Part shown: positions 61,195-64,000 of the stretch, in pieces
Layout: each line of letters begins with the position of its first letter
Position numbering within the stretch: position 1 is the stretch's first letter
DNA from: Lysobacterales bacterium
GTDB taxonomy: Bacteria > Pseudomonadota > Gammaproteobacteria > Xanthomonadales > SZUA-38
NCBI GenBank assembly: GCA_028285525.1
Contig: JANQOZ010000105.1
Location: forward strand, 62,001-126,000
Direction: 5' to 3'
DNA: 64,000 bases
Position numbers and translations under genes: made by a program
Notes under the pieces: generated by a model
What the model was told of the DNA's origin: nothing
What the model saw: only the letters and a program-made list of their open reading frames with translations
The model's database searches: none

Positions 61195-61270
61195 GGCTGA
61201 ATGCTTTGGAGTTCCTGGCGCAGCTGTTTGACGCGCCGACGACTCACCGGGAATTCGATTTCGCTTCCCT
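61191..61270 (-). pseudogene. LytTR gene 3'-end relic
   Basis: On the minus strand this segment reads TKGSEIEFPVSRRRVKQLRQ then ELQSIQP and stop (TTA at 61191-61193). It closely follows the end of the LytTR gene at 63638 (GAEYPVSRRRVKHLRQQLSD). Upstream the frame meets a TAA after about 27 codons, so only the tail of a former gene remains. It could be the relic of a duplicated or displaced paralogue. Confidence 0.6.
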
Positions 61271-61390
61271 TTGTTTACCTTTCTTTACCAAACACTTAGT
61301 GGATTTACTGTTTTGCCGTATCACCGGTGATTTATGATTGCCGTGTCGTCAGGGGGCGGTCGCTGTTACTTGGGTAAGAAGGAGCTTACT

Positions 61391-63193
61391 GTGCGGGTAA
61401 GGAAACCCATCGCCATTCTTGCGGTAATCCGATTGGGGGTTGTGGTCCTCGGTCTGGCCGCGGTGAACGTAGCTGCTGCTCAAACAGCGGCCGGTGAACC
61501 CTGGCAAAGCTGTGTCAGCAGCATCGCGTACGATCAGCCGGCGGGCGCGGCGGATTCACTGCGCGTCACCGATCGCTTTGGGCGCGATATATCCAACGCC
61601 GGTATTCCGTTGATGGACTGGGAAGGGTTTGTCGAAAACCCCCAGTTCCGCTTCAACCTCAACCTGCCAGACTCGGCGGTTTACCCGGTGCGCGTTCGAG
61701 TCACTGCGACCGATGCGCCTCGGCTCTACGTCTTTCAACGTCAGCAGGGAGCCGACCCTTACGATATCCGCGATTGGCTCTCGGTTCACAACGAGACCGG
61801 ACCACTCTGGGGCGTGATCCTGAAAACCGCGAGCGACGGTCGCTGGGTAAATGGCGGTGTCCCTCACGACATGCCCGATCAGGCATTGGCTGATATTGGT
61901 CTGGTCCGGGAAGAGCGATTCTTTGGCCCGGAGCAGTTCCCGCTGGAGCTGCATCTCGGCGTTCATCCCGATCGTGAGGCGGGCGATGAGGACTATACGC
62001 TGCAGATCGAGGTAACCGACGCGGCTGCTGCAGTCTTTCAGCGTTCTTTGCCGGTGCATGTATGCGACCAGGACCGCCCCGAGCGGCCGGTCGCGTTTCA
62101 GTTCCTGATCGATTACAGCTACGACTTCGACGGCTACCTTGAAGATACGCCCGACGGTCAGGTGGTCAAAGCAGCGCATGAACGCACGCTGCACGATCTG
62201 GCCTACTTCTTCACCGACATGCAGTTTGACGAGGTTCCGGCCGGCGCGTGCGAGGTGACCGTCAACTTCACGATCGAAACGCGGCCCGCAACCGGCGTCA
62301 ACGGTCAGAGTTATGATCGGGGCCACTACGTCTTCATCACCTCCCACAGCGGCGGTGGCGGTCTTAACGGGCCGGTGATGCACAAGCGCAACGGGATCGA
62401 TACCGATTTTGCGGCCTGCAGTTTCTGGGGTGCGAACCCGAGAAATCAGCTGTCCAGCAACGTCAGTAACCGTCTCTACGTTCCCGAAGATGACTGGTGG
62501 CGGGTGGTCTCCTGGAATTACGGCCAAAACGGCGAGTGTCTTGGGGATGCGCTGGGCGATCCGGGCAGCGGCTGCATTCAGTGTCCGAACGACGAACCCT
62601 GGTGTGCCTATCAGCGAGGCGATCTCTACTGGCCGAATCTGCATGAGCTGAATCATGGTCTCACGATGGCCACAGGATGGCCGCGGTGGCACCGCTGGTT
62701 TTTCAGCGATGACCTTTGTATCGACGACCCTGATCTGATGCGCTATAGCGGTACCTGTTTGCCTATGTATCGCACCGATCACGTTGTGCTTTTTGGCGAA
62801 ACCTTCGAATCCAATAAGCAGGCCGACTGGGGCAGGACGCTGTTCCGAAAATACGATTTTCTGCTGATGAAGGCGGTGGGCTGGGAGCTACGGGATACCA
62901 CCATGCTCGTCAACCTGACCGTAGCGACTGCATCACTGTCTCCGGGCCAGCTGGGCCAAACCTACAATGAAGCGATTGAAGTTTACGGCGGCGTGCCGTC
63001 CTACCGGTTCGTGCTTCAGTCGGGAGAGCTGCCTGCGGGGCTGAAGCTTAACTCTTTCACTGGCCGGCTGTCAGGCACGCCCAGCGCGCCGGGTACCTAT
63101 CGCTTTACGCTCCGCATTGAAGACTCTGATGAGTACAACGTGCTGCGAAAAGGGGGCGAAGAACGAACTTATGAGGTCACCATCAATGGGTAG
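61391..63193 (+). CDS. secreted HExxH protein of unrecognised family with C-terminal putative Ig domain
   Basis: The 600-residue protein uses GTG 61391, chosen for GAAGGAG 7 nt upstream. The signal peptide is LAVIRLGVVVLGLAAVNVAA. Residues ~35-240 look beta-rich (EDYTLQIEVTDAAAAVFQRS). The middle contains NLHELNHGLTMATGWPRWHR, giving HELNH (His418, Glu419, His422), the zinc-protease pattern, with many Cys (CLGDALGDPGSGCIQCPNDE). A He_PIG-like Ig domain closes the chain (LPAGLKLNSFTGRLSGTPSA). I do not recognise the catalytic family; the third metal ligand is not obvious. Its stop overlaps the next gene's start by 8 nt. Confidence 0.78.
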   Translation: MRVRKPIAILAVIRLGVVVLGLAAVNVAAAQTAAGEPWQSCVSSIAYDQPAGAADSLRVTDRFGRDISNAGIPLMDWEGFVENPQFRFNLNLPDSAVYPVRVRVTATDAPRLYVFQRQQGADPYDIRDWLSVHNETGPLWGVILKTASDGRWVNGGVPHDMPDQALADIGLVREERFFGPEQFPLELHLGVHPDREAGDEDYTLQIEVTDAAAAVFQRSLPVHVCDQDRPERPVAFQFLIDYSYDFDGYLEDTPDGQVVKAAHERTLHDLAYFFTDMQFDEVPAGACEVTVNFTIETRPATGVNGQSYDRGHYVFITSHSGGGGLNGPVMHKRNGIDTDFAACSFWGANPRNQLSSNVSNRLYVPEDDWWRVVSWNYGQNGECLGDALGDPGSGCIQCPNDEPWCAYQRGDLYWPNLHELNHGLTMATGWPRWHRWFFSDDLCIDDPDLMRYSGTCLPMYRTDHVVLFGETFESNKQADWGRTLFRKYDFLLMKAVGWELRDTTMLVNLTVATASLSPGQLGQTYNEAIEVYGGVPSYRFVLQSGELPAGLKLNSFTGRLSGTPSAPGTYRFTLRIEDSDEYNVLRKGGEERTYEVTING

Positions 63194-63620
63194 GTTGCTG
63201 CTCGCGATACTGTCGGCCTCCGCTTTTCTCGGGTCGTCGGCTTCAGCGCAAACGCCTCAGCCAGAGATCCTGAGTCCCGCGCCGGGCACGGTTGTCGACG
63301 CAGAGCCGCTGGGAGACGGTGCAATCATGCGTCTAATGTGGAGTTCGCCGGCAGAGGCCAACGTTGAGGACTGGGCCATTTACGTTGGCAGCACGCCCGG
63401 CGCCTGGGACTACCAGCGGATCACGCACATGAACCGGTATTTTAAGTTTCCCGATCAGGAATCTCTGAAAATTGGTGTCCCTGCTGACGGCTCAACTTTC
63501 TACGTGCGCCTGTTCTGGCGCCCACGTGATAGCGGGTTCAGCCACTTGGACGTCAGCTACGTGGCTCCAGATTTCAGCGATATTGCGCTGGGCCGGATAT
63601 TCAGCAGCGGCTTCGAATAA
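63186..63620 (+). CDS. small secreted protein with IFSSGFE tail
   Basis: The 144-residue protein starts at an ATG overlapping the HExxH gene end. The signal peptide is MGRLLLAILSASAFLGSSAS, cut near AQT. The mature part looks like a fibronectin/Ig-like beta domain (PEILSPAPGTVVDAEPLGDG, MRLMWSSPAEANVEDWAIYV, PADGSTFYVRLFWR). It ends ALGRIFSSGFE, the loosest copy of the shared tail. It is translationally coupled to the HExxH protein and may be its partner or surface carrier. No known function. Confidence 0.83.
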   Translation: MGRLLLAILSASAFLGSSASAQTPQPEILSPAPGTVVDAEPLGDGAIMRLMWSSPAEANVEDWAIYVGSTPGAWDYQRITHMNRYFKFPDQESLKIGVPADGSTFYVRLFWRPRDSGFSHLDVSYVAPDFSDIALGRIFSSGFE

Positions 63621-63637
63621 GCCGGGGCCTTCAGCCG

Positions 63638-64000
63638 CTAGCCATCACTGAGTTGCTGGCGCAGGTGCTTCACACGCCTGCGGCTCACGGGATACTCGGC
63701 GCCAGTTTCCATCGTGACGTGGTAGCGGCTACCCGGCCGCGATCGCAACGCCCGGATCGTCGTAAGTCTCAAAATGTGCGACCGGTGCACTCGGACAAAG
63801 TCTTTTGGCAGTATTTTTTCCAGCGCGTCGAGACCTTTTTCGTGAAGCCGGCAGGTGTTGTCGTTGAGCTCGAGCTCCGCGTAGTCGCCGGCGCCGTGGA
63901 TCGCTAGGATCCGCTGCGTGTCAATGATCTCCAGTCTGCCGCGATGTCGAACCGCCAGGCGCGTGGCGGTCGACCGGTCGCCGAGGTTCAGCCGGTCGAG
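63638..64000 (-). CDS. LytTR-family DNA-binding regulator, C-terminal part (runs off the window)
   Basis: Reading the minus strand from the window edge gives 120 open codons ending TAG at 63638-63640. The sequence holds the LytTR fold: RLEIIDTQRILAIHGAGDYA, RLHEKGLDALEKILPKDFVR, VHRSHILRL and EYPVSRRRVKHLRQQL. LytTR domains bind DNA through beta strands, usually behind a receiver or membrane domain, which would lie past 64000. It is convergent with the small secreted protein, 17 bp apart. Confidence 0.9.
   Translation of the reverse strand, partial: LDRLNLGDRSTATRLAVRHRGRLEIIDTQRILAIHGAGDYAELELNDNTCRLHEKGLDALEKILPKDFVRVHRSHILRLTTIRALRSRPGSRYHVTMETGAEYPVSRRRVKHLRQQLSDG

Follow-up and report, generated by a model that had tools for sequence, protein, structure and literature searches.

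The question raised by this locus, which lies towards the right end of the 64,000-nucleotide stretch of Lysobacterales DNA that was analysed (the window), is what kind of protein is encoded by a gene, P0001, whose exported product carries an HExxH motif, and whether that product has any working relationship with the small tailed secreted protein, P0002, encoded directly behind it. We consider it likely that P0001 belongs to a family of exported zinc metallopeptidases without a name in Pfam or NCBIfam, and that it was acquired together with P0002 as a 2.44-kb block. The two genes and the parts of P0001 are laid out as follows.

61391 to 63193, plus strand: P0001, secreted HExxH protein of 600 aa, with a ribosome-binding site, a signal peptide and homologs aligned over residues 50-581
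61391 to 61480, plus strand: predicted signal peptide of P0001, residues 1-30, ending ...AVNVAAA before Q (by eye from the sequence)
61547 to 62062, plus strand: N-terminal beta-sandwich domain, residues 53-224 (alignment A2, AF2 model, Foldseek)
62063 to 62905, plus strand: zincin-like catalytic domain, residues 225-505 (alignment A3)
62531 to 62620, plus strand: Cys-rich insertion (ECLG..GCIQCPNDEPWCAYQRG), ~27-30 residues (alignment)
62642 to 62656, plus strand: HELNH, with His418, Glu419 and His422, invariant in the family and on a helix predicted at low confidence
62780 to 62782, plus strand: His464, candidate third zinc ligand and the only other invariant histidine
62930 to 63154, plus strand: He_PIG (putative Ig) domain, residues 514-588 (Pfam PF05345, E 2e-12)
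63186 to 63620, plus strand: P0002, 144-aa secreted protein with its own signal peptide, ending GRIFSSGFE, with IFSSGFE at the C-terminus

Translation of P0001 starts at the GTG at 61391, preceded by AAGGAG at 61379-61384, 6 nt before the GTG. Much of what the sequence-only reading had described at this locus held up on closer analysis: P0001 is a 600-residue protein with a signal peptide and with HELNHG at residues 418-423 (DNA 62642-62659), and its Ig-like end is a true member of the He_PIG family, an assignment that is uninformative on the catalytic domain. The protein itself terminates in YEVTING and carries no FxxGFE tail. The overlap with the IFSSGFE-tailed gene is likewise exactly 8 nt (63186-63193), and the two genes are likely to be co-translated through it. 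The ATG of P0002 has a GAGG 9 nt ahead of it.

The same reading could not place the HExxH domain in a known protease family, and the library searches bear this out. Nothing named scored above cut-off for residues 30-505 in Pfam or NCBIfam, and a PDB sequence search left the HExxH domain unmatched. Direct sequence searches of ~1,200 Pseudomonadota genomes returned just He_PIG or chance matches, and neither exact 8-mer scans of genome and viral contigs nor tblastn of plasmids gave any match to P0001. Eight homolog candidates (L032, L064, L065, L067, L069, L071, L072 and L076) were set aside on inspection, being antisense, broken by stop codons, limited to short matches within unrelated ORFs, or irreproducibly weak. 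A profile search that included He_PIG was drowned by unrelated Ig repeats, and the Ig domain was left out of the comparison of P0001 with its homologs. For a secreted protein whose HExxH site is conserved and which falls in no Pfam or NCBIfam family, "unrecognised metalloprotease" serves fairly as a working name.

The lead to relatives came from a consensus for a bacterial secreted family, which matched P0001 at E 4e-13 and served as a lead only; the conclusions on the family rest on homologs that were subsequently retrieved. Four of these (L083-L086) were recovered from genome contigs with a DNA pattern for a TKLDLLxAxAxG stretch, and the full-length set numbers five: two from Verrucomicrobia (L083, on a contig of only 4.6 kb, and L085), one from Dehalococcoidia (L084, behind leucine-rich repeats), one from a Chthonomonas sp. 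(L086) and one on a phage-like 59-kb IMG/VR contig (L087). With the Ig domain removed, P0001 matches L083-L087 with E-values from 5e-23 to 3e-15 for a database size of 257 Gb, and the homology is therefore independent of that consensus. The proteins are collinear over their full length, with alignments spanning residues 50-581, and share one domain order, in which an N-terminal DxFGR...DWEG...NP beta domain is followed by the HExxH domain and then by He_PIG, the last found in all five members of alignment A1. P0001 carries the N-terminal signature as DRFGR...G..L.DWEG...NP, with a ~40-residue insertion in this domain relative to the homologs. A profile search of 200 related genomes found no further family member, and among 115 genomes drawn from the phylum of L083 a member was present in L083's own genome alone. 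By sequence comparison, P0001 belongs, as a diverged member, to a sparsely distributed family of bacterial secreted protease-like proteins, one that is without a profile in Pfam or NCBIfam, the two libraries searched.

The settings of two of these relatives merit description. In Dehalococcoidia (L084, 425-3730) the module is preceded by two stretches of leucine-rich repeats and a long Thr/Pro linker. The phage-like IMG/VR contig (L120, 1113-2639) encodes its member of the HExxH family as a secreted protein, and the contig of L087 also encodes long collagen-like YSG-repeat proteins, phage-like in look.

The HExxH motif alone is unremarkable, as 24 of 100 shuffled versions of the window contain the corresponding HExxHG DNA pattern; what lifts it above chance in P0001 is that His418, Glu419, His422 and His464 are kept in all five distant homologs. 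Of the 214 ungapped columns of the catalytic domain, P0001 and the five homologs agree fully in 26 (alignment A3): Asp241, Asp245, Gly248, Asp252, Asp269, Val282, Gly311, Gly321, Gly335, Trp369, Asp411, His418, Glu419, His422, Tyr452, Gly454, His464, Gly469, Arg482, Lys487, Asp489, Leu491, Ala495, Gly497, Leu500 and Arg501. Exactly three of the nine histidines of the P0001 catalytic domain are among them (His418, His422 and His464, the last two separated by 41 residues), and Glu419 is the one invariant glutamate in the alignment. The family pattern, all of it present in P0001, consists of an invariant H-E-x-x-H, a distal H, and K-x-D-x-L-x(3)-A-x-G-x(2)-L-R. Variation at the His/Glu residues of the motif, which had been named in advance as evidence against a metalloprotease, is absent from the five homologs. 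Such conservation supports a three-His zinc site formed by His418, His422 and His464, with Glu419 as the putative base.

The domain had also been described as Cys/Trp-rich, which is correct for the P0001 copy, with 9 Cys in the catalytic region, and does not extend to the family, whose other members have 0-3. The Cys-rich insertion sits just before the HExxH helix and is missing from all five homologs, so that the Cys/Trp-rich look is a local elaboration. P0001 is the most diverged member, with 23-29% identity to the others against 38-58% among themselves, and it is without ~11 residues that the other members keep just after His464. Together, the long branch, the 11-residue loss from the loop after His464 and the private insert could be taken as the marks of a degenerate, inactive copy. 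This we regard as improbable: the gene retains a 600-codon open frame with an intact signal peptide and ribosome-binding site, and every candidate catalytic residue is retained. P0001 is a real, secreted and probably active zinc-peptidase-like protein, although its divergence and the residues lost after the distal His mean that the activity of this copy could differ from that of its relatives.

Structure prediction is informative mainly for the N-terminal half. A single-sequence AF2 model of P0001 reached a pLDDT of 37.7, and a family model built from six sequences a mean of 58.9. In the family model the E-rich N-terminal domain forms a good beta-sandwich, with pLDDT 70-91 across much of its length, whereas the catalytic half (pLDDT ~35-77) places HExxH on a predicted helix and is too poor for ligand geometry. 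Foldseek against the PDB and viral models returned beta-sandwich-type partners alone, with no peptidase partner for the low-pLDDT catalytic half. One alternative is that the domain keeps a zincin-like fold and its metal but is no protease, P0001 being an adhesin or carbohydrate-binding surface protein in which the Ig domains do the work. The two Ig-like domains flanking the HExxH domain, the fusion of the module to leucine-rich repeats in L084 and the failure of named peptidases to match above cut-off are all in keeping with such a role, but the HExxH Glu, the catalytic base, is invariant across distant lineages and a mere structural metal site needs none; we judge this alternative unlikely.

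How the gene came to be here can be seen by comparison with a genome of the same genus (G001), in which the syntenic site has 46 bp where the source genome has ~2,450, between collinear flanks of 87-88% nucleotide identity. The features that define the block are these.

61200 to 63650, no strand: block absent from the syntenic site of G001 (blastn, L127 vs L132)
61209 to 61257, minus strand: remnant of the 3' end of a LytTR gene (GSEIEFPVSRRRVKQLRQELQSI) at the left block boundary, one copy of a 49-nt direct repeat
63650 to 63698, minus strand: matching 3' end of an intact LytTR response-regulator gene at the right block boundary, the other copy

The two copies of the 49-nt repeat are 76% identical and lie 2,441 bp apart, start to start. 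Each specifies the C-terminal end of a LytTR response regulator: on the right stands the intact gene (Response_reg plus LytTR by Pfam), on the left a remnant of 20-odd codons. This mirrored 3' end suggests that the block was inserted at the 3' end of the regulator gene or exchanged through it. Between ~60,650 in the window and ~64,780 (in contig coordinates, beyond the end of the window), identity to G001 drops from 90-98% to only 55-80%, as expected if a divergent tract had been exchanged by recombination. The genes of the block have a GC3 of 0.68, similar to the genes beside them. Because there is no other member in the 200 related genomes, and only that of L083 in the 115 from its phylum, gain of the block by horizontal transfer is the simpler reading, with a direction that two genomes alone do not fix. 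In either direction, a gain or loss event is visible at a regulator gene.

The sequence-only reading had gone further and proposed that the overlapping pair could be a surface metalloprotease and its carrier, and a candidate to process a shared C-terminal tail. P0002 does carry that tail: this exported protein ends in the [LIV]FxxGFE motif. The pattern [LIV]-F-x-[DSN]-G-F-E-stop has 45 DNA-pattern matches in the source genome against one for the reversed control, and 29 of the 30 matches inspected (loci L033-L062) are in-frame ORF C-termini. Tails of this form end ~44 ORFs of the source genome, with no membrane segment after them, and are also present in other families of the order. A literature search of partial coverage found no description of the tail as a sorting signal. 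P0002 itself has only a weak edge match to BiPBP_C in Pfam, no detected relatives in 105 related genomes or in plasmids, and no matches when an Fn3-like consensus was used as query.

The 8-nt overlap and the 45 tail matches are what would commend P0001 as a protease processing FxxGFE-tailed proteins, with P0002 as substrate or carrier. Against it, tails of the same form were met incidentally in five loci from four order relatives (G013, G017, G022 and G026), profile search found no P0001 relative in any of the four, and the same-genus genome is also without P0001. Tailed genomes that have no P0001 relative imply that P0001 is not the general tail-processing enzyme. Its gene is, moreover, a sporadic addition, and inspection of the four bacterial homolog loci (that of L083 on its 4.6-kb contig) showed no tailed small gene next to the homolog; with P0002 lacking detected relatives, a conserved enzyme-carrier pair is not supported. 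We consider the tail-processing role highly improbable, and on these data P0001 and the shared tail have no more than a coincidental link. One candidate handler of the [LIV]FxxGFE tail is thus removed, and the handling of the tail, still unexplained, is probably the more interesting problem in the source genome.

What we propose instead, for P0001 as an exported zinc metallopeptidase, is a protein whose zincin-like catalytic domain is set between an Ig-like DWEG domain at the N-terminus and a He_PIG Ig domain at the C-terminus. His418, His422 and the distal His464 would bind Zn2+ and Glu419 would activate water, and cleavage probably takes place beyond the inner membrane, with a protein or a peptide as substrate. 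Its gene and the downstream tailed secreted gene would have arrived together at the 3' end of the LytTR regulator gene. As a small exported protein, P0002 probably takes the ordinary [LIV]FxxGFE-tail route of the genome, and it may simply be co-translated with P0001 rather than act as its partner.

Comparison with known peptidases places the domain near several zincin groups, although neither solved structures nor named peptidase families gave a match to P0001 above threshold. The best relevant solved match of the family profile is the catalytic region of matrix metalloproteinase-16 (E 0.016, below threshold), in which W..n...nDlysislHElgHal falls on the matrixin active-site segment, nDlysislHElgHal aligns to NDLFLVAVHELGHAL and helix A aligns in the same order but without a score of its own. 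One family member has an E of 0.0036 against Pfam Matrixin, also below cut-off, and, around HExxH, an edge match to the NF038122 metalloprotease family of NCBIfam (E 0.0044), where it scores 17 bits and the cut-off is 80. The likeness to matrixins (MEROPS M10, PF00413) lies in the order of strand, helix A, strands and a W..nDLy...HExxHA helix. In place of the metzincin motif HExxHxxGxxH/D, however, P0001 has HELNHGLTMATG, with Thr at residue 425, and the homologs likewise are without the Gly of HExxHxxG and without a conserved His or Asp at the metzincin positions, the only other invariant His lying 36-41 residues further on. The Met-turn position after the third ligand reads M-P in L083, L086 and L087 and V-P in L084 and L085 and is absent in P0001, so that the family alignment holds no invariant Met-turn. 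Membership in M10 is not claimed because HExxHxxGxxH fails, and a matrixin-like zincin is our best guess for the fold. A downstream Glu as third ligand, as in gluzincins, is not seen in the family, Glu419 being its sole invariant Glu.

In leishmanolysin-type zincins (M8), HExxH is joined by a third His some tens of residues further on, and both the HExxHxxG glycine and a Met-turn are kept. The P0001 family resembles them in pairing HExxH with a distal His and is set apart, on this description, by the missing Gly. We suggest, tentatively, that these proteins may form a new metallopeptidase family outside Pfam and NCBIfam, distinguished by a putative HExxH-x(36-41)-H zinc site without the metzincin glycine or an invariant Met-turn and sporadic across distant phyla and a phage-like genome. 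A secreted family missed by both libraries is thereby given an identity that can be tested, its candidate zinc ligands being named.
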